A DNA stretch of 47,465 nt from Cytophagaceae bacterium (lineage in GTDB: Bacteria; Bacteroidota; Bacteroidia; Cytophagales; Spirosomataceae), in the NCBI GenBank assembly GCA_024642485.1, contig JAHEAY010000003.1:1-47465 (forward strand), in the 5' to 3' direction. The notes beneath the pieces were generated by a model. That model was not told the DNA's origin. It saw only the letters and a list, made by a program, of their open reading frames with translations, and did not search any database. Shown piece by piece: positions 6,016 through 16,021 of this stretch (position 1 is its first letter; every line of letters starts with the position of its first letter). A program made the translations under genes and the position numbers.

Positions 6016-7020
6016 ATGAATGTATCAATCGTATTTGTCAACTACAAAACGGAAGCGCTCTTATTGGATTGCTTGCGAAGCATTCACGAACATACCCCCG
6101 AACTGCATTTCGAATGCATAATTGTCGACAATCACTATGTCAGAGGCCAAAATCAAGCCATTTTATCGGCCTTTCCACAAACAACTTGGATTGATTCCGG
6201 TGGGAATGTTGGCTTTTCCAAAGCCAATAACATCGGATTGAATGCAGCCTCTGGCGAATACGTGCTATTTCTAAATGCCGATACCTTGGTCTTCGATGCA
6301 GCAATTACGAAGGCTTACCAAAAACTAAAAACCGATTCAAGTCTTGTGGCTGTCGGCGGAATTCAAGTTGATTCAAATCAAGATCCTATCCCCTATTATC
6401 GAACGCTAAATGCTGTAAGAAGAGATTTTTACATTGTTCCCAATAGACCTGTTTTTCATCAACTGATCGATCGATTATTACCTGAAGAAAGATTCAGCCG
6501 ACCGGAAGAAACAAATAATTTAGTGGGTGCCTTTCTGATGGCATCGAAAGAAAACCTGCTCAAACTACATGGTTGGGACGAAGATTTTTTCATGTATGCA
6601 GAAGATGCTGAATTGAGTTACCGTCTGAGTAAAATTGGAAAATTGGCCTATTTTGACGAGATCAAATTCATTCACCTCATTCAAGAAAATCCTTTCCGAA
6701 GAACGACCTACTCCTGGGTCAATCGTTTTTCGATGCAAATTCAAGTTTCTAACTTACTGTGGATTCGTAAAAGCTATGGAATTTTGCCTTATGTGATTAT
6801 CTATGCGAATTATACATTATTGGCTCCATTGTTCTGGGCATGGAAAATTTGCATCAATATACTTAAGGGGAAAAATTGGTTGAATGACACAGATAACCAA
6901 CGAATTTTTAGCCAAAAACTCGGGATACTCTACCGCTATTTTATAGCAATTTTATTCCTAAAAAAAGGACCTTACCGGATAAAATCGGATGAGAATATTG
7001 ATCAAGTCAATAAATCATAA
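6016..7020 (+). CDS. Family 2 glycosyltransferase (rhamnosyltransferase-like)
   Basis: GT2 family enzyme. The N-terminal GT-A fold starts at once (VSIVFVNYKTEALLLDCL), the nucleotide-sugar DxD-type site is LFLNADTLVF (about residues 89-98), and the acceptor/catalytic region is FFMYAEDAELSYRL, typical of rhamnosyltransferase-like GT2 proteins. After residue 230 there is a hydrophobic stretch suggesting membrane association, with a basic tail. The sugar donor and acceptor cannot be told from sequence; cell-surface polysaccharide is the usual setting. It stands 48 bp upstream of eboA on the same strand and could be transcribed with the ebo cluster, but the family is too common to infer a shared function. 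Confidence 0.88.
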   Translation: MNVSIVFVNYKTEALLLDCLRSIHEHTPELHFECIIVDNHYVRGQNQAILSAFPQTTWIDSGGNVGFSKANNIGLNAASGEYVLFLNADTLVFDAAITKAYQKLKTDSSLVAVGGIQVDSNQDPIPYYRTLNAVRRDFYIVPNRPVFHQLIDRLLPEERFSRPEETNNLVGAFLMASKENLLKLHGWDEDFFMYAEDAELSYRLSKIGKLAYFDEIKFIHLIQENPFRRTTYSWVNRFSMQIQVSNLLWIRKSYGILPYVIIYANYTLLAPLFWAWKICINILKGKNWLNDTDNQRIFSQKLGILYRYFIAILFLKKGPYRIKSDENIDQVNKS

Positions 7021-7068: not shown

Positions 7069-7821
7069 GTGAAAACGAATACTCAAATCACTGAAACCAT
7101 CGCATCCTATGCGACTGAAACAGAATCCACATGGATCGCCGAGCAAAAAGCCCTCAATGCTAAAGCTTTGGCATTAGCCTTTGTGAAAGTTCCTCGTTTT
7201 ATCTCAAAGCATTTGATTGAAGCTGGTGATTTCAAAGGCTGGACTCTAGACCAAGTTGTTCGAGTCAATTTACTAACTCAATTGGACGAGGCGAATGTAG
7301 ACCTGTTATATGAAACTGCAGAAATACAAGAAGCTGTCGCTTTAACGCGTTCACTTCCCTACTTAAATAATCCAGAGAATTTTTTATTACGTGCGACGGA
7401 CGCGGTGCGTTCCAACATGGGTCCCGTTTTTGACGCGATTGCCTTTGGAAATACCTATCCAAAAGATTATTTCAGCGAAGCGGCTTGGAACCAATTAGTC
7501 TTAAAATGTATTTTCAACGACAAAGCAATTCATCAAATCATCGGATTGGATGAACGAGCTAATCAAGATTTAGCCAATACACTTTCCGATTTTGCCCATG
7601 AAAGATGGTCGGCAGGACGCAGAGTGCCTTCCCAAGTATGGCGGCTCGTTCCTAAATTCATGAATGAATCTTTACATGCCGACATTGAAAAGCTAGCTCA
7701 ATCTGAAAATCCACGGGATGTCCTTGCAGCCAGCTTAGTGAAACAAGAAGCCCAAATTCCTGGCAGTACGCAAGGACTTTGGCATGAACTTGAAAAACCA
7801 GAACCGATTTATACCGCCTAA
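7069..7821 (+). CDS. eboA: EboA protein, first gene of ebo cluster
   Basis: EboA-domain protein, the first member of the conserved ebo cluster. Recognisable family features are the WTLDQVVRV segment (about residues 58-66), the WNQLVLKCIFND helix and the C-terminal HERWSAGRRVPSQVWRLV signature (residues about 183-200). It appears all-helical, with no signal peptide or membrane helix, so it is probably cytosolic. Its biochemical activity is not known in any organism. The start is a GTG at 7069; no in-frame ATG lies nearby, and the next residues (KTNTQITETIASYATETE) look like normal coding. eboB begins 1 bp after its stop codon, indicating translational coupling. Confidence 0.88.
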   Translation: MKTNTQITETIASYATETESTWIAEQKALNAKALALAFVKVPRFISKHLIEAGDFKGWTLDQVVRVNLLTQLDEANVDLLYETAEIQEAVALTRSLPYLNNPENFLLRATDAVRSNMGPVFDAIAFGNTYPKDYFSEAAWNQLVLKCIFNDKAIHQIIGLDERANQDLANTLSDFAHERWSAGRRVPSQVWRLVPKFMNESLHADIEKLAQSENPRDVLAASLVKQEAQIPGSTQGLWHELEKPEPIYTA

Positions 7822-7822
7822 T

Positions 7823-8839
7823 ATGTGCCAAGAACATAAAAACATAGGAAATCCTTCACATTTTGAAGGTACAGAGCAAGAGAAAACAACAGCACATGCA
7901 GTTGATGGAACTTTTGCCCAATACACACAAGGTATGAAATTCTTTGATCCGCATGTGCACATGACTTCGCGGACCACGGATGATTATCAGGCTTTAGCTG
8001 ATGCTGGCGTTGTTGCATTGATTGAACCTGCATTCTGGTTGGGCCAACCGCGTACTGGATTAGCTTCATTTAAAGACTATTTCGCGAGTTTAGTGGGCTG
8101 GGAACGTTTTCGTTCTTCGCAATTTGGCATCAAACATTATTGCACGATTGGACTGAATTCTCGTGAAGCTAATCATGAGGCATTAGCAGAACAGGTGATG
8201 GAAATATTGCCTTTATTCTTGCAGAAAGAAGGCGTTGTGGGTGTAGGGGAAATCGGTTTCGATGACCAAACAGCCGCTGAGGAAAAATATTACCGTGCGC
8301 AATTAGAGCTGGCCAAAGAAATGAATTTGCCCGTACAAGTACACACGCCACACCGGGATAAGAAAAAAGGAACGGAGCGCAGTATGGCCATTGCTTTGGA
8401 GCATGGCATCGCACCGAACATGGTCATTATCGACCATAATAATGAAGAAACGGTTAAATCGGTTTTAGACCAAGGTTTTTATGCTGCTTTTACGATTTAT
8501 CCTTTCACTAAAATGGGCAATGAGCGTATGGTAGAAATCGTAAAACAATACGGTCCCGAACGCATCATGGTCAATTCTGCCGCCGATTGGGGCATTTCGG
8601 ATCCATTAGCAATTCCCAAAACAGCTGCCTTAATGAAAATCAAGGAGATTCCTGATGAACATATTCGTTTGGTTACGTATCAAAACGCTTTGGATGCATT
8701 TGCCCAAAGTGGACAGATTCAAGAATCGGATTTCATCAACGGCTTGGAAATTGACCAAACACAAAAATTTAATGGAAATACGGTTTTACGGGGTGGTCAA
8801 GCACCACGTGTCAACAAAGATTCCCTAATCATTCGCTAA
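7823..8839 (+). CDS. eboB: EboB, TatD-type metal-dependent hydrolase
   Basis: TatD-family TIM-barrel hydrolase assigned to EboB by sequence and position. Metal ligands visible are FDPHVHM (His44, His46), GEIGFDD (Glu), VQVHTPH (His), IIDHNNEE (His) and the late NSAADWG (Asp). The family signature HVHMTSRTTDDY is typical of EboB rather than of general TatD nucleases. The substrate is unknown. Starting at 7823, one base after the eboA stop, gives a 37-residue N-terminal extension; a start at 7934 (MKFFDPHVHM) would give the more usual family length. The frame stays open through the extension. Its stop TAA overlaps the eboC start by one base. Confidence 0.88.
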   Translation: MCQEHKNIGNPSHFEGTEQEKTTAHAVDGTFAQYTQGMKFFDPHVHMTSRTTDDYQALADAGVVALIEPAFWLGQPRTGLASFKDYFASLVGWERFRSSQFGIKHYCTIGLNSREANHEALAEQVMEILPLFLQKEGVVGVGEIGFDDQTAAEEKYYRAQLELAKEMNLPVQVHTPHRDKKKGTERSMAIALEHGIAPNMVIIDHNNEETVKSVLDQGFYAAFTIYPFTKMGNERMVEIVKQYGPERIMVNSAADWGISDPLAIPKTAALMKIKEIPDEHIRLVTYQNALDAFAQSGQIQESDFINGLEIDQTQKFNGNTVLRGGQAPRVNKDSLIIR

Positions 8840-9726
8840 TGCGTATCAAATTCAGAGCCTTTCTTGAACTCATGCGTCCAGCGAATGTCATCACAGCCTT
8901 AACGGATGTGTTGGCGGGAATGGCCATCGTAGGATTTACCTTTGGGACCTTGGACTATCAATTTTGGCCCGTGGTTTTTCTGGGTATTTCGACCATGTGT
9001 TTATATGCAGGCGGTGTCGTATTCAATGACATTTTTGATCATGAACTGGACATCATTGAACGCCCAGAACGCGCTTTGCCTAGTGGCAGAATCCAACGAA
9101 TCGAAGCCATTTTTGGTGGAATCGTTTTATTATCATTGGGAATTTTCTTAGCCTTTTGGCAAAGCCGATTGAGTGGAATCATCGCGGTAATCATCACCGT
9201 ATTAGCATTATTTTATGATTACAAGGGAAAACACATGCGCATTTTTGGTCCTATCAATATGGGATTATGCCGGGCCTATAATTTAATGCTGGGGATGAGC
9301 GTGTACGAGCTAGGTGTGTTAGAGCACTTTTATTTGATTTTAATTCCTTTGATTTACATCGCTGCGATTACCTTGGTGAGTCGCGGTGAGGTACATGGAA
9401 GCCAATCGGCGCCCTTATGGTTTGCGGCCTTCTTATTCGTCATTGTGCATGGAAGCCAATTGGCCGTAGGCTATCAAGCTGGAAAATTGATGTACATGCT
9501 GCCATTTGTTGTGGCACACGCTTATTTGATCTTTTCAAAGTTGACAAAAGCCATCCAAAACCCTATAGGCCCTAATATAGGTCAAAGTGTTAAAACCGGT
9601 GTTTTGACACTAATTTTAATGAATGCCGCCTGGGTCAGCGTTAGTGAACAATATTACATGGCTTTTGTTACTTTAGCCTTATTGCCGCTCTCCATGTGGG
9701 TGGGCAAAAAATTCGCCGTTTCTTAA
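8839..9726 (+). CDS. eboC: EboC, UbiA-family membrane prenyltransferase
   Basis: Polytopic membrane protein of the UbiA superfamily, about eight or nine hydrophobic helices in 295 residues. The first Asp-rich motif is NDIFDHELD (residues 63-71), followed by the conserved ERPERALPSGRI; the second motif is YDYKGKHMR. Both are intact, so prenyl-diphosphate binding is likely. In the ebo setting it is called EboC. UbiA enzymes move a prenyl or similar hydrophobic group onto an acceptor at the membrane, which would fit attaching a cargo to a lipid carrier; that is inference. It overlaps eboB by one base (TAATG) and is followed by eboD at 10 bp. Confidence 0.9.
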   Translation: MRIKFRAFLELMRPANVITALTDVLAGMAIVGFTFGTLDYQFWPVVFLGISTMCLYAGGVVFNDIFDHELDIIERPERALPSGRIQRIEAIFGGIVLLSLGIFLAFWQSRLSGIIAVIITVLALFYDYKGKHMRIFGPINMGLCRAYNLMLGMSVYELGVLEHFYLILIPLIYIAAITLVSRGEVHGSQSAPLWFAAFLFVIVHGSQLAVGYQAGKLMYMLPFVVAHAYLIFSKLTKAIQNPIGPNIGQSVKTGVLTLILMNAAWVSVSEQYYMAFVTLALLPLSMWVGKKFAVS

Positions 9727-9736
9727 TTTATCATTC

Positions 9737-10882
9737 ATGCAAGTTTTACAACAGCAATTTCAAGTACCCTTCAGCTATCAAGTGATTTTTACGAAACACT
9801 TGTTTGACGCGAGCAATAAAACCTTGTGTGATTTTATATCCAATTTTGGCCAAAGCAATTTCCGCAAACGCATCTTATTTGTCATCGACAAAGGCGTTGC
9901 AGATGCACATCCATCCTTAACGAGTAACATTGTTTCATATTTTGAATCGAATGCTGTAGCTGATTTAGCACCAGAAATCTTGGTTTTACCTGGCGGGGAA
10001 GTGTGTAAAAATGATCCCCGATTTTATGAAGAAGTCGTTCGGGCGATTGATGAACATCGCATTGACCGACATTCTTTTGTCGCAGCAATTGGTGGTGGTG
10101 CTTTCTTGGACATGTCGGGATATGCCGCTGCTATTTCCCATCGTGGAGTTAAATTAATTCGTATACCCACGACCGTCTTATCCCAAAATGATTCAGGAGT
10201 GGGCGTCAAGAATGGGGTCAATTACTTAGGCAAAAAGAATTTCTTAGGCACCTTCGCTCCTGCTGTAGCCGTATTTAACGATATCGCCTTTTTAGCAACC
10301 TTGGAAGACCGCGACTGGCGCTCTGGAATTGCAGAAGCCATCAAAGTAGCTTTGATCAAAGATTTAGTTTTTTTCGAATGGTTAGAGGCGCATGTCGATG
10401 CCATGAATGCCCGTGATGAAGCGGCGATGGTTGAGCAAATTTATCGTTGCGCCGACTTGCACATGAAGCATATTTCGGGCGGAGATCCATTTGAATTGGG
10501 ATCCGCACGACCCTTGGATTTTGGACATTGGGCAGCACATAAATTGGAATATTTATCCGATTTCAAGATACGTCATGGCGAAGCAGTTGCGATCGGAATT
10601 GCCTTGGATTGCGTGTATTCGCATTTGATTGGTGCGATTTCCTTATCGGATTGTAAGCGTATTTTGGCCGTCATTAAGGGCTTAGGATTTGATTTATATC
10701 ATCCGGCTTTGGCCGAAAATGAATGCCAAAACCTGCATAAAGGTTTGCAAGAATTCCAAGAACATTTGGGAGGGCATTTAACCATCACTTTGTTGAAAGC
10801 TTTAGGAAAAGGAGAAGAAGTTCACGAAATGGACTTCCCAACGATCCAAGCTTCCGTTGCCTTATTAGCTAAATACGCTTAA
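9737..10882 (+). CDS. eboD: EboD, 3-dehydroquinate synthase-like enzyme
   Basis: Sugar phosphate cyclase-fold protein related to AroB. It has the glycine-rich NAD site IGGGAFLDMSGY (119-129), RIPTTVLSQNDSGVGVKNGVN (from about 142), and all three zinc ligands at SGIAEAIK (Glu200), DFGHW (His264) and RHGEAVAIG (His280). It is therefore probably catalytic. The position between eboC and eboE, and the form FGHWAAHKLE, mark it as the ebo paralogue and not the shikimate enzyme. Its product is unproven; a cyclitol or sugar-derived carrier headgroup is one possibility. Length 381 is slightly above AroB. eboE begins 1 bp after its stop. Confidence 0.88.
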   Translation: MQVLQQQFQVPFSYQVIFTKHLFDASNKTLCDFISNFGQSNFRKRILFVIDKGVADAHPSLTSNIVSYFESNAVADLAPEILVLPGGEVCKNDPRFYEEVVRAIDEHRIDRHSFVAAIGGGAFLDMSGYAAAISHRGVKLIRIPTTVLSQNDSGVGVKNGVNYLGKKNFLGTFAPAVAVFNDIAFLATLEDRDWRSGIAEAIKVALIKDLVFFEWLEAHVDAMNARDEAAMVEQIYRCADLHMKHISGGDPFELGSARPLDFGHWAAHKLEYLSDFKIRHGEAVAIGIALDCVYSHLIGAISLSDCKRILAVIKGLGFDLYHPALAENECQNLHKGLQEFQEHLGGHLTITLLKALGKGEEVHEMDFPTIQASVALLAKYA

Positions 10883-10883
10883 G

Positions 10884-12062
10884 ATGAAAACAGCCTACGG
10901 ACACCTCAGTTATTGCAGTAACATTCATCCCGGGGAGATTTGGGAAGAACATTTTGCCAATTTACAAGCAACCGTCCCGAAGGTAAAGCAAGAAGTTTGT
11001 CCAGACCACGCGATGGGATTGGGTTTACGGATCGCGAATCAGGCAAGTATCGATTTAAGCGAAGATTCGAATAAGTTGGCAGCCTTAAAAACCTGGCTCG
11101 CCCAAGAAGACATTTACATATTTACGTTGAACGGATTCCCGTATGGCGGATTTCATAATACGATTGTCAAAGATCAGGTGCATGCGCCCGACTGGACGAC
11201 ACAGGATCGCGTGAATTATACCCGTCGATTGATAGATTTATTAGTTCAATTATTGCCAACGGATCAACATGAGGGAGGTATTTCAACGTCGCCATTGTCT
11301 TATAAATTCTGGTGGGATAATCGCGGTTCGGCAATTAGCCAGGCCACGATGGAATTGTTAAAACTCGTCCCCTATTTGGCTCAAACGGAACAAAAAACGG
11401 GAAAATGGATTCACATTGACATCGAACCGGAGCCAGATGGCCTATTGGAAAATCACCGTGAATTCGTCGACTGGTACACAGACATTTTAATTCCTTATGC
11501 GATAACAGCCGGCATTCCGGAAGATTGGGTTCGTAGGCATATACACATCTGTTTCGATGTGTGTCATTATGGGGTTTCCTTCGATAAACCTACATCCTGT
11601 TTACAAGAATTAGCAGAGAAAAATATCTCCATCGGCAAGATACAAATCAGTTCTGCGCTGCGAGTTGATTTACGACAGGACGCTAATGCGCGTATCGAAG
11701 CCTTGAAACAATATGAAGAACCCACTTATTTACATCAGGTGAAGGCCTTGAAAAAAGATGGGAATTACGAACAATTCAAAGATTTGGGAGAAGCCTTAGC
11801 GCAATACAAAGAAGGAATTTACGACGAGTGGCGCGTGCATTTCCATGTGCCTCTTTTCTTAGATTCCTATGGCTTATTGAATTCCACGCAAGCGGAAATC
11901 GCGGAAACTTTGGCTTATCATCAACAACATCATGTCACACGGATGATGGAAATTGAGACCTATACTTGGGGAGTTTTACCCTCCGAATACCAAGAATCCA
12001 TCGAGACATCCATCGCGCGTGAAGTCACGTACATACAAGACCTATTATGCAAAAAACCGTAG
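10884..12062 (+). CDS. eboE: EboE, metabolite traffic TIM-barrel protein
   Basis: Matches the 'metabolite traffic protein EboE' family: it opens with GHLSYCSNIHPGEIW, continues with FTLNGFPYGGFH (about residues 71-82), and has IDIEPEPDGLLE and HICFDVCHYGVSFD, which give an apurinic-endonuclease/xylose-isomerase-like TIM barrel with acidic and histidine metal ligands (Glu/Asp/His in the last two motifs). No signal peptide or membrane helix is seen, so it is cytosolic. A role as an isomerase- or epimerase-type enzyme on a sugar-like intermediate is plausible but unproven. Its 3' end overlaps the eboF start by 16 bp. Confidence 0.9.
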   Translation: MKTAYGHLSYCSNIHPGEIWEEHFANLQATVPKVKQEVCPDHAMGLGLRIANQASIDLSEDSNKLAALKTWLAQEDIYIFTLNGFPYGGFHNTIVKDQVHAPDWTTQDRVNYTRRLIDLLVQLLPTDQHEGGISTSPLSYKFWWDNRGSAISQATMELLKLVPYLAQTEQKTGKWIHIDIEPEPDGLLENHREFVDWYTDILIPYAITAGIPEDWVRRHIHICFDVCHYGVSFDKPTSCLQELAEKNISIGKIQISSALRVDLRQDANARIEALKQYEEPTYLHQVKALKKDGNYEQFKDLGEALAQYKEGIYDEWRVHFHVPLFLDSYGLLNSTQAEIAETLAYHQQHHVTRMMEIETYTWGVLPSEYQESIETSIAREVTYIQDLLCKKP

Positions 12063-13411
12063 TCATTGATATTGTAGGCCTAAGCGAAAGTATTTTAGGT
12101 CAACATACCCCTTTTTTAGACGGCTATATTTCGGGTAAAAAGAAATCGAAAATCAAGCCCCCGTTTCCGGCTGTGACGACGACTTCCCAAAGTGTATACC
12201 TGACAGGAAAATATCCAAGTTCACACGGCATTGTGGGGAATGGCTGGTATGACAACATCGATTCGGAAGTGAAGTTTTGGAAACAGTCCAATAAGCTCGT
12301 GGGGGACGAAAAAATCTGGGATGCAGGACATAAAAAAGATCCGAATTTCACCTGTGCCAATTTATTTTGGTGGTACAACATGTATTCATCGGCGGATTAT
12401 TCGGTGACACCTAGACCTCAATATCACTCGGATGGAGTAAAGATGCCTGATTGTTATAGTCATCCAGCTGATTTGCGTGATGAATTACAGGAGGCCTTTG
12501 GAACATTTCCCTTGTTTAATTTTTGGGGACCCAATGCAAATATTAAATCGACAAATTGGATTGCGGATGCCTCCATTTACGTGGATAAGAAATATGATGC
12601 GACGCTGACCTTTATCTATTTGCCTCATTTGGATTATTGCTTGCAGAAATTCGGCGTGGATTTTGAAAAGATCAAAGGCGATTTGCAGGAAATCGATCAG
12701 GTAGTTGAGCGTTTAGTAAGCCATTTTGAAGGCAAAGGGGCGAAAGTAATTATCCTTTCCGAATATGGAATTAATAACGTTTCCAAACCCGTTCATTTGA
12801 ATCGCATCTTGCGCGAGGCAGGTTATATCGCCTTGCGGGAGGAACAAGGCTTGGAATTATTAGATCCGGGTGCATCACGTGCATTTGCCGTATCTGATCA
12901 CCAAATCGCGCATGTATATTGTCCTGATGCTTCTGTTTTGGATGAAGTAAAATTACTTTTGATGCAAACACATGGCGTCAAAAAAGTACTATCCGGCGAT
13001 GAATTAGCCGCATTTCACATCGATCATCCGCGTGCGGGCGACTTGGTATTGATTGCTGATAAGGATGCTTGGTTCACCTATTTCTACTGGTTGGACGACA
13101 AAAAAGCACCCGATTTTGCCCGTTGTGTAGACATCTTCAAAAAACCTGGGTATGACCCTGTCGAGATGTTCATGGATCCTAAAAACCCATTCATCAAACT
13201 CCGTGCGGCCTATAAATTGGCCCGTAAACTGACAGGTTTCCGTTATCGCATGGATGTGATTCCTTTGGATGCGAGTTTGGTCAAAGGATCCCATGGCAGT
13301 CCATTTTGCGACGAAGCTTATTATCCTTTGTATATCGCTGATAATCAATCAACTGATAAAATGGAACCAACGGAAGTTTATTCCTTGATTTGGAATACGG
13401 TGTTTGAATAA
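12047..13411 (+). CDS. eboF: EboF, nucleotide pyrophosphatase/phosphodiesterase-like
   Basis: Alkaline-phosphatase superfamily protein of the NPP type. Asp8 (VIDIVGLS) and the putative nucleophile Thr44 in PPFPAVTTTSQSVYLTG, followed by YPSSHG, are intact. Later metal-ligand motifs differ from the classical ones: YLPHLDYCLQKFG has Gln200 where a GHxxG His is usual, and SEYGI (239-240) stands in place of SDHGM. I believe these changes are typical of this bacterial subfamily, but its activity may differ. No signal peptide is visible. In the ebo pathway it may cleave a phosphodiester or pyrophosphate in a carrier-linked intermediate; this is inference. It is the last gene of the core cluster. 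Confidence 0.85.
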   Translation: MQKTVVIDIVGLSESILGQHTPFLDGYISGKKKSKIKPPFPAVTTTSQSVYLTGKYPSSHGIVGNGWYDNIDSEVKFWKQSNKLVGDEKIWDAGHKKDPNFTCANLFWWYNMYSSADYSVTPRPQYHSDGVKMPDCYSHPADLRDELQEAFGTFPLFNFWGPNANIKSTNWIADASIYVDKKYDATLTFIYLPHLDYCLQKFGVDFEKIKGDLQEIDQVVERLVSHFEGKGAKVIILSEYGINNVSKPVHLNRILREAGYIALREEQGLELLDPGASRAFAVSDHQIAHVYCPDASVLDEVKLLLMQTHGVKKVLSGDELAAFHIDHPRAGDLVLIADKDAWFTYFYWLDDKKAPDFARCVDIFKKPGYDPVEMFMDPKNPFIKLRAAYKLARKLTGFRYRMDVIPLDASLVKGSHGSPFCDEAYYPLYIADNQSTDKMEPTEVYSLIWNTVFE

Positions 13412-13443
13412 ATTGGTTAACTTGAATTCCTAAACTTATCAAA

Positions 13444-13803
13444 ATGAAAAAGATCTTAACAACAATCGCCATGGTCGTTGCCCTAATGGGAGCCGGCGAA
13501 GCAGTTTACGCACAAATGCCAAGTCCACAGGAAATGGCTATGAATCAATTGAACCGCATGAGTTCAGAATTGAAATTGACCAAAGAGCAAGAAGACAAAA
13601 TTGAACCCTTAATTGTTGCACGAATCGAAAAGATGATGGAATTCCGTCAAGCTGGTATGGAACGTGAAGAGATGATGGGGGAAATGAAGAAGATTAACGA
13701 GGGCCAACAAGAAGCGTTGAAGGCTATTTTGACACCTGAGCAATTAGAGAAATACAAAACTATGCAGTCGCAAATGCGTGCGGGTGGGCCTCCAAGAAAC
13801 TAA
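13444..13803 (+). CDS. Small periplasmic Spy/CpxP-like protein
   Basis: 119-residue exported protein with a clear signal peptide (MKKILTTIAMVVALMGAGEA, cleavage probably at VYAQ). The mature part is helical, Met/Glu-rich, and carries two LTxxQ motifs (LTKEQ near residue 44 and LTPEQ near residue 97), the hallmark of CpxP/Spy periplasmic chaperone or metal-sensing proteins. It ends in a Gly-Pro tail. It lies 32 bp after eboF and 5 bp before the beta-helix gene, so it is probably in the same transcript. A direct part in the ebo pathway is not shown. Confidence 0.72.
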   Translation: MKKILTTIAMVVALMGAGEAVYAQMPSPQEMAMNQLNRMSSELKLTKEQEDKIEPLIVARIEKMMEFRQAGMEREEMMGEMKKINEGQQEALKAILTPEQLEKYKTMQSQMRAGGPPRN

Positions 13804-13808
13804 TTAGG

Positions 13809-15008
13809 ATGAAGTACCTCAACATTTTTCTTTTATTTATTGGGCTTTCTCCACTTATGGGGCAAGCCCAATTTGAAAAAGGACTGCAGACTCAATTAAT
13901 CCTAGCATCAGATGGGGATGTGATTGAATTGGAAGCAGGCAAATTTCAAATTTCGGGTAGTTTATCCTTAGAAGGAAAAAAGAAAATCACTATCCGCGGT
14001 AAGGGAATGGACAAAACGGTCTTGAGTTTCAAAGATCAACAAACCGGTGCGGAAGGAATCAAAATCACCAATTGCGAAAATATCATTTTAGAAGATTTGA
14101 CAGTTCAGGACTCCAAAGGAGATCTAATTAAAACGATGCATGTGAAGGATATCACATTCCGTCGCATCAAAGCCGAATGGACAGGAGGACCCAAGTCCCA
14201 AAATGGCTCCTATGCGCTTTATCCAGTGCTTTGCACAAATATTCTTATCGACAGCTGTATCGCGATCGGGGCATCTGATGCGGGAATTTATGTAGGACAA
14301 TCTCAGCACATCGAAGTAAAAAATTGCACAGCCTATCAGAATGTAGCGGGGATTGAAATCGAAAACTCTCTCTTTGCGGATGTGCACCATAACCATGCCT
14401 ATGGAAATACAGGTGGGATTTTGGTATTTGATTTACCGGATTTGATTCAAAAAAAGGGTGGATTTGTTAAGGTTCATGACAACCTAATCGAAGCTAATAA
14501 CCAATCGAATTTCGCTCCTAAAGGCAATATCGTAGGTAAAGTACCCAAGGGAACTGGGATGTTGATTTTGGCGACGAGCAACGTAGACATTTACGACAAT
14601 AAGATTTTAAATCATCAAACGGTAGGCGTCGGTATTATTTCTTATTTCATGTCAGAAATCGCGATTAAAGATAAGGAATATGACCCCTACCCGACCGCCA
14701 TTTCGGTGTTCAATAATACCTTTGAGCGTCGTTTAGGACGTGTACCCTTAGAAGGACGATTTGCCCAGATTTACCGCTTCAAATTGCGATTTGGCAGAAA
14801 TGTACCCCATGTAGTTTATGATGGTATTCTTGATTCGGCACGTTGTGGAAGCGATGGTCAATATTTACCCCAACATCGCATTTGTGTACATCATAATGTA
14901 AACCAGTCGGTGGCCAATATGGACGCGGAGCATGATTTCAAAAACGTGCGACGTAATCCAGTGGAGTTGGATTGTGTACAGGAATATGTCAAATCGAATC
15001 AATTTTAG
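13809..15008 (+). CDS. Secreted parallel beta-helix repeat protein
   Basis: 399-residue protein with signal peptide (MKYLNIFLLFIGLSPLMGQA) and repeated right-handed beta-helix turns of the pectate-lyase/PbH1 type: ITNCENIILEDLTVQDS, VKDITFRRIKAEW, CTNILIDSCIAIG, SQHIEVKNCTAYQN and ENSLFADVHHNHAY follow one another from about residue 75 to 200. It resembles the family that occurs beside the SO2930-type diheme cytochrome, which is exactly its neighbour here (2 bp downstream). The pair is thought to work together in the periplasm; no activity is established. A polysaccharide or other polymer substrate is possible from the fold. Confidence 0.85.
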   Translation: MKYLNIFLLFIGLSPLMGQAQFEKGLQTQLILASDGDVIELEAGKFQISGSLSLEGKKKITIRGKGMDKTVLSFKDQQTGAEGIKITNCENIILEDLTVQDSKGDLIKTMHVKDITFRRIKAEWTGGPKSQNGSYALYPVLCTNILIDSCIAIGASDAGIYVGQSQHIEVKNCTAYQNVAGIEIENSLFADVHHNHAYGNTGGILVFDLPDLIQKKGGFVKVHDNLIEANNQSNFAPKGNIVGKVPKGTGMLILATSNVDIYDNKILNHQTVGVGIISYFMSEIAIKDKEYDPYPTAISVFNNTFERRLGRVPLEGRFAQIYRFKLRFGRNVPHVVYDGILDSARCGSDGQYLPQHRICVHHNVNQSVANMDAEHDFKNVRRNPVELDCVQEYVKSNQF

Positions 15009-15010
15009 GC

Positions 15011-16021
15011 ATGCGTTACTTGGGATTCCTCTTGCTTCTTGGCTTATTTTCATACCAACCAGCGCCTAAATTTCCCACGAAACTCTCTGATTACGGCTTG
15101 TTTCAGGGAAAACTGCAAGATCAAATTCCCGTAACTGGTGTGATACCCTATGAGCTGATTAGCCCCCTCTTTTCAGATTACGCCCATAAATTACGTTTCG
15201 TTCAGTTACCTGCGGGACAATCAGTCGCCTACAATCCGGATTCCGTTTTTCAATTCCCGGTGGGAACACGCATAGCCAAAACCTTTTATTATCCCTTCGA
15301 TGAGCGCAAACCTGAATCCGGTCGGCGAATCATGGAAACACGTATCCTAAGCCATGAAGGTTCAGGCTGGGTAGCATTGCCTTATATTTGGAATGAGGAG
15401 CAAACAGAAGCCTATTTAGAAGTAGCTGGTGGGACGAGTTTGGTGGAGTTCAAAAACTTGCAGGGCAAGAAGCAGCAGGTTAATTATGTCGTGCCGAATA
15501 TGAATCAATGCAAAGGATGCCACGAACGGGATGGCATGATGACGCCTATAGGTCCTAGTGCCCGACAAATGAATGCCTCGATGCGCTATGTCCATGGAGA
15601 AGAAAACCAATTGGATTATTGGAGTCGGACGAATCAGCTGACGAATGTATCCGAAACTAGGCCTAAATTCGTCTCGTATTTTGACGAAGGTGCGCCTCTC
15701 AATGAACGAGTGAAGGCATATTTGGACATCAATTGTGCGCATTGTCACAATCCCAAAGGACCCGCCAAGAGTTCAGGCTTATTTTTAGATTATCGCTATT
15801 ATGGTACGACGGCCTACGGCAACATGAAATCACCTGTGGCGGCAGGTCGCGGTTCAGGCGGTTTATCCTATGACATCGTTGCGGGTAAACCGGCAGAAAG
15901 CATATTGCTCTATCGAATGAATTCGCATGATCCGGGGGTTATGATGCCGGAACTTGGTCGGACAATTATCCATCAAGAAGGCGTCGCGTTGATCCGTGAA
16001 TGGATTAAATCAATTCATTGA
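15011..16021 (+). CDS. SO2930-family diheme c-type cytochrome
   Basis: 336-residue exported protein with two CxxCH heme attachment sites, CKGCH (residues 167-171) and CAHCH (242-246). The N-terminal hydrophobic segment MRYLGFLLLLGLFSYQPAP is a signal peptide. The region before the hemes (YELISPLFSDYAHKLRFVQLP) is the conserved N-terminal domain of the SO2930 family. I chose ATG 15011 because it begins the signal peptide and follows the previous stop by 2 bp; a longer frame from 14972 would overlap the beta-helix gene. It probably carries electrons to or from a periplasmic substrate jointly with the beta-helix protein. Confidence 0.88.
   Translation: MRYLGFLLLLGLFSYQPAPKFPTKLSDYGLFQGKLQDQIPVTGVIPYELISPLFSDYAHKLRFVQLPAGQSVAYNPDSVFQFPVGTRIAKTFYYPFDERKPESGRRIMETRILSHEGSGWVALPYIWNEEQTEAYLEVAGGTSLVEFKNLQGKKQQVNYVVPNMNQCKGCHERDGMMTPIGPSARQMNASMRYVHGEENQLDYWSRTNQLTNVSETRPKFVSYFDEGAPLNERVKAYLDINCAHCHNPKGPAKSSGLFLDYRYYGTTAYGNMKSPVAAGRGSGGLSYDIVAGKPAESILLYRMNSHDPGVMMPELGRTIIHQEGVALIREWIKSIH

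Follow-up and report, generated by a model that had tools for sequence, protein, structure and literature searches.

The six-gene ebo operon of a freshwater Cytophagaceae bacterium as a candidate isoprenoid-cyclitol pathway

The ebo operon is present in many phyla and in algal plastids and is essential for scytonemin in Nostoc, and the literature examined leaves its product unnamed. A 2016 study (PMC5133447) described the operon, its spread and the ABCDEF type of Bacteroidetes, a type shared with Cyanobacteria, Leptospira and eustigmatophyte plastids, and proposed an isoprenoid-cyclitol product. In Nostoc punctiforme, ebo is needed for the export of scytonemin, and all five genes deleted there are required (PMC6282210). 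The subject of the present analysis is a 47,465-nucleotide stretch of DNA, termed the window, from contig JAHEAY010000003.1 of a Cytophagaceae bacterium (GCA_024642485.1). This freshwater bacterium carries a complete, previously described six-gene ebo operon, eboA to eboF, in which genes, order, strand and domains are the same as in the ABCDEF type and no structural difference is seen. The operon as such is thus already known, since both its type and the product idea are in PMC5133447. The correspondence with the Nostoc punctiforme set is by published naming only; there, eboD lies apart from the other five and scytonemin genes are present, whereas in the window's genome (2.5 Mb, 89% complete) eboD is part of the operon and the ScyE family is unmatched.

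As the best explanation of the whole, including a repurposing of EboF, we propose that the operon makes a membrane-bound isoprenoid-cyclitol, to which we assign a probability of about 0.58. A lipid-linked cyclitol had been suggested in the original prediction, made from the letters of the window; the idea was already in print (PMC5133447) and is strengthened by the exchange of eboD for an inositol-3-phosphate synthase (IPS) gene in other ebo clusters. What is new beyond that paper is the near-universality of ebo in one genus, the loss of metal ligands in EboF, and the comparison with IPS-type clusters. No paper joining IPS to ebo was found among the matches listed, in a search that left subscription papers, preprints and supplements outside, and neither “inositol” nor “zinc” is used anywhere in the body text of PMC5133447, PMC6282210 or PMC9235831.

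The cyclase position of ebo clusters

EboD contains the domains PF01761 and PF24621 and retains E200, H264 and H280 in 25 of 25 EboDs, which places it in the sugar-phosphate cyclase superfamily; we take the three residues to be the Glu/His/His of the metal site. Its substrate is probably sedoheptulose 7-phosphate. The family model NF004852 carries the name 3-dehydroquinate synthase (DHQS), and most of the nearest solved chains of EboD are DHQS, with the ValA structure 4p53 also matched. A second DHQS for the shikimate pathway, as the NCBI label would have it, is nevertheless highly improbable. EboD reaches 211.1 bits against the aroB equivalog TIGR01357, below the cut-off of 305, while a separate AroB in the same genome clears it with 342.2 bits; the Asn of the LNxGH motif in the five DHQS chains compared is replaced by Asp261 in 25 of 25 EboDs; eboD remains with ebo; and PMC5133447 places EboD outside DHQS. 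EboD is therefore not a DHQS proper, and a shikimate role was ruled out by the score, the separate AroB and Asp261.

The cyclase was followed in a plasmid sample of 20 loci with EboE or EboF, drawn from 48 and 54 matching records, respectively, a biased sample that includes near-copies. EboD is present in seven of these loci (Deinococcus, Azospirillum, Ketogulonicigenium, Mycetohabitans, Roseivivax, Salipiger and Aureibacter). In ten others it is missing and an IPS and a PF01261 isomerase are found instead; eight of the ten are from Streptomyces or Embleya and one from Nonomuraea, making nine Actinomycetota, and the tenth is from Gemmatirosa (Gemmatimonadota). The remaining three carry neither cyclase (L124 and L125, with only B, E and F, and L120, with only EboE), and none of the 20 has both. 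Among the window and 80 related Bacteroidota loci, EboD is found in 77 of 81, the other four being cut by a contig end at most 470 bp from eboE, and no IPS-like open reading frame occurs in any of them; IPS is likewise absent from all 59 genomes searched, the window's own and its relatives. A sample of 148 genomes across the phylum contains IPS in 24, EboE in 8 and both in none, which is uninformative, since about one shared genome is expected by chance.

The IPS of the ebo clusters is, as far as sequence can tell, genuine. The two copies tested, from Streptomyces and Gemmatirosa, match PF07994 and PF01658, the nearest solved structure is 1u1i (3e-67), and the lysines that we presume to be catalytic are kept in all nine sequences that extend to these positions; the tenth is truncated where its locus ends. 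The nine actinobacterial clusters (L116, L118, L121-L123 and L126-L129) have the arrangement IPS / SCO3242 prenyltransferase / isomerase / EboA / TatD / EboE / EboF. They share with the window homologues of EboA, EboB, EboE and EboF together with a UbiA prenyltransferase, and differ in that EboD is missing, IPS and the PF01261 isomerase stand in its stead, and EboC, where checked, is assigned to the SCO3242 family by its annotation or its score. EboD and IPS are unrelated in family, yet each forms a carbocycle from a sugar phosphate, and their alternation in one slot argues for a cyclitol head. The simplest reading would thus be that the pathway needs a cyclitol head group.

It is also conceivable, though rather unlikely, that in the Actinomycetota and in Gemmatirosa the IPS and isomerase belong to a different pathway, in which case they would be no substitute for EboD. 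The functional equivalence of the two cyclases is argued from position; eight of the ten IPS loci are from Streptomycetaceae, three of those being near-copies; and the IPS product is not certain, because the enzyme scores 33.8 bits against the mycothiol INO1 equivalog, far under the cut-off of 638. On the other hand, IPS, EboC and the isomerase lie side by side in both phyla, a single frame encodes isomerase as well as EboA domain in L118 and L123 (such hybrids are mentioned in PMC5133447 as data not shown), EboD and IPS never occur together at any locus read, and NF004852 has no match in the three IPS-type replicons searched whole, a search that covered neither their chromosomes nor the other seven records.

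The prenyltransferase and its acceptor

The motif D64-x2-D67-x3-D71 together with Y56 and R145 is conserved in at least 93% of 73 EboCs, that of the window included. DxxDxxxD, Tyr56 and Arg145 are given as features of a UbiA group that includes Ubi-297 (G2) (PMC9235831), and the window EboC falls into this group.

Gemmatirosa provides a view of the cyclase exchange outside Actinomycetota. Its EboB groups with that of Deinococcus (support 100), and a single IPS-type EboB clade is rejected (p 8e-34); its EboF groups with EboD-type Proteobacteria (support 97). The Gemmatirosa EboC, in contrast, groups with the actinobacterial IPS-type EboCs, with a bootstrap of 95 and an SH-aLRT of 92 (93, unstarred, in the quick tree), and a sister position to the EboC of Deinococcus can be rejected (p 0.0005). 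The SCO3242 model gives the Gemmatirosa protein 172.5 bits and the EboC model 135.6; in six EboD-type EboCs from outside Bacteroidota the two scores differ by no more than 20 bits, sometimes one and sometimes the other being higher. Cyclase and prenyltransferase thus seem to move as a unit, and such joint movement of the ring-maker and the tail-adder is to be expected if EboC prenylates the cyclitol.

EboC relatives from Maribacter, Zobellia and Algoriphagus farnesylate 8-hydroxyquinoline-2-carboxylic acid (8-HQA) in vitro (PMC9235831), and two Algoriphagus EboCs share 41-42% identity with that of the window. EboC might accordingly prenylate an aromatic quinoline such as 8-HQA, with a meroterpenoid as the product of ebo. 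Tryptophan 2,3-dioxygenase is the usual entry to the kynurenine route. The enzyme (PF03301) is present in four of the five EboE-positive genomes of the order outside the window's genus, as would suit this alternative, and in 16 of the 22 other genomes of the order. It is unmatched in all 37 genomes of the genus, in a search confined to this one route, and a kynurenine route to 8-HQA is for this reason unlikely there. In addition, the cyclase and the isomerase-like barrel do not suit quinoline chemistry, and what an enzyme accepts in a substrate screen need not be its natural acceptor. Taken together, quinoline prenylation appears improbable as the function of ebo, and 8-HQA is probably a surrogate substrate of EboC in this genus.

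EboF, the remaining proteins and the proposed pathway

By predicted structure, EboF has the fold of nucleotide pyrophosphatase/phosphodiesterase (NPP) enzymes. Four of the six Asp/His zinc ligands are however replaced, by V10, Q200, E239 and Y240, which align to the ENPP1 ligands D200, H362, D405 and H406; the replacements are present in 95-97 of 97 EboFs. This sets EboF apart from NPP phosphodiesterases such as XacNPP and ENPP1, and the two-zinc site of an active enzyme of this type is not present. As a control, all 15 alignable NPP/PafA-type paralogues retain the ligands. In ENPP1, alanine at any Asp/His ligand except H362 leaves the enzyme inactive on both substrates tested (PMC9173814). 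With the four ligands lost, EboF probably does not act as an ordinary phosphodiesterase. The original prediction had named the gene set correctly, except that its “phosphodiesterase” for EboF is unsupported in view of these ligands. An active EboF that cleaves phosphodiesters or pyrophosphates at an atypical metal site deserves consideration, as the NPP fold is kept, the Thr at the nucleophile position (T44, in 95 of 97), D196 and H416 are retained, and 72 positions are invariant across the 97 EboF sequences. Given the ligand replacements, the ENPP1 alanine variants and the intact paralogues, we regard it as doubtful. We also note that residues 361-404 combine invariant positions (K366-P371, E373, F375 and R399) with low model confidence (ten-residue means of 38-62), and this segment may perhaps be ordered only by a partner or ligand.

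EboB has H57, H59, E156, H187, H190, H218 and D268, numbered from the frame that opens at 7784, conserved in at least 93% of 72 sequences, and with its HxH, Glu, His, His and Asp falls among TatD-like metallohydrolases, whose ligand set we take these residues to represent. A start at 7823 is supported by the Met and Cys there, each conserved in at least 93% of the 72. EboB is the most conserved protein of the set, with 98-99% identity and dN/dS of 0.005-0.009 to the close relatives L033 and L034. EboE, assigned as a TIM-barrel protein in PMC5133447, has 107 of 392 positions conserved in at least 93% of 81 sequences. A lone EboE homologue lies amid type II polyketide synthase and oxygenase genes on a plasmid of Streptomyces sp. 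NBC_01244 (L120, 7968-9146), with no other ebo gene within 17 kb. EboA matches the NCBIfam EboA_domain with 158.8 bits (cut-off 50) and EboA_family with 160.3 bits, under the stricter cut-off of 320. Its structure model is all-helical, with weak evidence for a HEAT/ARM or TPR repeat fold, and a helical scaffold is its probable role.

In the pathway that we propose, EboD would cyclise a sugar phosphate, probably sedoheptulose 7-phosphate, to a cyclitol, which EboB and EboE may then modify. EboC would join the cyclitol, as the likely acceptor, to a prenyl tail in the inner membrane, with EboA as a presumed helical scaffold. EboF, its two-zinc site lost, would most likely bind or hand over a phosphate-bearing intermediate, or carry out metal-independent chemistry, rather than hydrolyse a phosphodiester. 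The resulting lipid could be a constituent of the envelope or, in line with the Nostoc deletions, might assist the passage of small molecules through the inner membrane.

Several observations weigh against this pathway. No ebo product is known. In Nostoc, a lipid-conjugated scytonemin monomer was not found and gene-specific metabolites did not accumulate (PMC6282210), and the word “cyclitol” is absent from PMC9235831, where EboC relatives farnesylated quinolines in vitro. The joint movement of cyclase and prenyltransferase is seen in one cluster outside Actinomycetota, that of Gemmatirosa, whose EboB is a long branch (L117_B). The Gemmatirosa EboE sits with the EboD-type sequences, yet a single IPS clade is not rejected (p 0.22), and neither is a grouping of its EboC with other non-Bacteroidota EboD-type EboCs (p 0.14) or with Bacteroidota (p 0.065). 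In the EboD-type cluster of Ketogulonicigenium (L115), a neighbour of the TatD gene is annotated as a sugar-phosphate isomerase/epimerase, though it has no match to the IPS-type isomerase at 1e-6; the isomerase is thus a weaker marker of the IPS type and is not strictly tied to IPS. On two Streptomyces plasmids (L124 and L125), whose EboFs group with the one from L123, a span of 17 kb holds EboB, EboE and EboF but no cyclase, EboC or EboA. The absence of EboD from IPS-type strains, finally, holds for the loci read and for three whole replicons, and most host chromosomes lie outside that search.

Organization, distribution and the question of a cargo

The six genes are contiguous on one strand in the fixed order, and are separated in turn by a gap of 1, an overlap of 1, gaps of 10 and 1, and an overlap of 16 bp (Table 1). 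Family matches and frame positions bear out the extent, 7069-13411, the gene identities and the spacing that had been predicted.

Table 1. Genes of the ebo operon and its immediate neighbours, in window coordinates.
Feature	Position	Strand	Description
GT2 glycosyltransferase	6016-7020	+	PF00535; family f28; upstream of eboA
eboA	7069-7821	+	GTG start; all-helical protein, probable scaffold
eboB	7823-8839	+	TatD-like metal-dependent hydrolase; PF01026 1.6e-18
eboC	8839-9726	+	UbiA-family intramembrane prenyltransferase; NF035940 EboC equivalog 354.5 bits (cut-off 250)
eboD	9737-10882	+	sugar-phosphate cyclase; NF004852 562.8 bits (cut-off 333)
eboE	10884-12062	+	xylose-isomerase-like TIM-barrel protein; NF035939 EboE equivalog 478.8 bits (cut-off 250)
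eboF	12047-13411	+	NPP-fold protein; PF01663 1.4e-57
small LTXXQ/Spy-like protein	13444-13803	+	PF07813 0.0044, below cut-off; family f9

Compared with L033 and L034, the frames align over all residues (at least 248 of 250 for eboA) with zero stops. The dN/dS of eboA is 0.077-0.087 and that of the remaining genes 0.005-0.035, ratios that are rough because dS of 0.8-1.9 is near saturation. All six genes look to be under purifying selection. Unexpressed frames, named beforehand as what would refute the prediction, are unlikely given the absence of stops and the low dN/dS (0.005-0.087).

EboE is present in 34 of the 37 genomes of the window's genus, its own included, and the three negative genomes are 71, 91 and 73% complete. 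It occurs in 5 of the 22 other genomes of the order, which gives 39 of 59 overall, and in 8 of 148 genomes sampled evenly across the phylum, the own genome counted. As ebo is patchy in the phylum yet core in a genus with genomes of about 1.5-3.2 Mb, we infer a maintained cellular function, part of the core gene set, rather than a strain-specific metabolite cluster. In one relative (G039), EboE and the sole PF01663 match (EboF-like, 57% identity, L140) lie on separate contigs, C9 and C19, and the operon may be split there.

The survey of the neighbourhood took in the first 23.5 kb of the window together with 80 named loci, the best among at least 550 relatives and, going by their record names, all from Bacteroidota; open reading frames were grouped by single-linkage clustering. 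The order A-B-C-D-E-F is uninterrupted in 56 of the 81 loci; the remainder show contig-end cuts, insertions or genes missing from the stretch. In nine of ten Chitinophaga loci (L080-L083, L091, L095, L098, L100 and L102), one to three opposite-strand genes lie between eboC and eboD. The GT2 glycosyltransferase gene upstream of eboA recurs in 8 of 81 loci, all close kin of the window, and is outside the conserved operon, and the LTXXQ/Spy-like gene 3' of eboF is a lineage-specific neighbour found in 15, all in the window's closest group. After the operon (13809-16021) lies a tandem pair encoding a parallel beta-helix protein and an SO2930-family diheme cytochrome c, which recurs in other loci of this group.

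Could ebo serve in the first place to help export one particular aromatic cargo, along the lines put forward for the scytonemin monomer of Nostoc, with the cargo genes elsewhere in the genome? Possible cargo genes do stand beside ebo elsewhere, namely a VioB-type ferritin-like gene (PF12902) in L119 and L132 and a ScyD/ScyE-family gene in L127. The survey of recurring neighbours that had been suggested gives no convincing candidate among the 81 loci for the different cargo that the prediction had called likely. The commonest non-ebo family (f6), of GFO/IDH/MocA oxidoreductases, is found in 19 of 81 loci from several genera, on varying sides and strands, a count that may simply reflect the large size of the family. 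This family includes cyclitol dehydrogenases. The next families are subtilase and M24 peptidase (f7 and f8, 16 of 81 each), MgtC (f10, 14), and TMEM220 and saccharopine dehydrogenase (f11 and f12, 13), and they track groups of genera. With the recurring families either scattered or following such groups, assignment of a cargo by neighbourhood was dropped. The prediction's statement that no scytonemin gene accompanies the operon holds for the ScyE family, which has no match anywhere in the window's genome, a search that leaves ScyA-C aside; a scytonemin cluster is not recognised there. Near-universal presence in a genus with genomes of this size (about 1.5-3.2 Mb) also suits a core role better, and we consider a dedicated aromatic export role possible but clearly the weaker proposal beside an isoprenoid-cyclitol product.

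Four clusters from the plasmid sample have neighbours worth recording. The VioB-type gene lies upstream of ebo in two phyla, at 144-1226 in L119 (Mycetohabitans) and at 1651-2919 in L132 (Aureibacter), in both preceded by a gene annotated as hypothetical; a cargo pathway is possible for this pair. In L127 (Streptomyces camelliae), the IPS-type cluster is flanked at 1031-2233 and 9455-13257 by a ScyD/ScyE-family gene (243.2 bits, cut-off 80) and genes for an aromatic prenyltransferase, a methyltransferase and a multicopper oxidase, which recall scytonemin chemistry. A gene at 13279-13602, annotated as a 2Fe-2S protein, is labelled as tetracycline ribosomal protection by PLSDB, a label that is doubtful because the gene is only 324 bp long. 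In Ketogulonicigenium, a GFO/IDH/MocA oxidoreductase gene directly adjoins eboD (L115, 9575-11254).

For the ebo family, the cyclase swap narrows the chemistry to a cyclitol head and a prenyl tail and points to the two genes that would have to be exchanged jointly. It could also explain the genomes reported without eboD. The loss of ligands in EboF argues against the phosphate or pyrophosphate hydrolysis that had been proposed, so that mutant and lipid experiments can be better aimed. More tentatively, the product may be a modular isoprenoid-cyclitol carrier lipid, the head of which is made by either of two non-homologous cyclases (EboD, or IPS with an isomerase), each travelling with its own prenyltransferase, while EboF would be a repurposed phosphodiesterase fold, its two-metal site gone, that loads or releases the carrier. 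If this is true, ebo would stand for a type of lipid for small-molecule export that differs from undecaprenyl phosphate.

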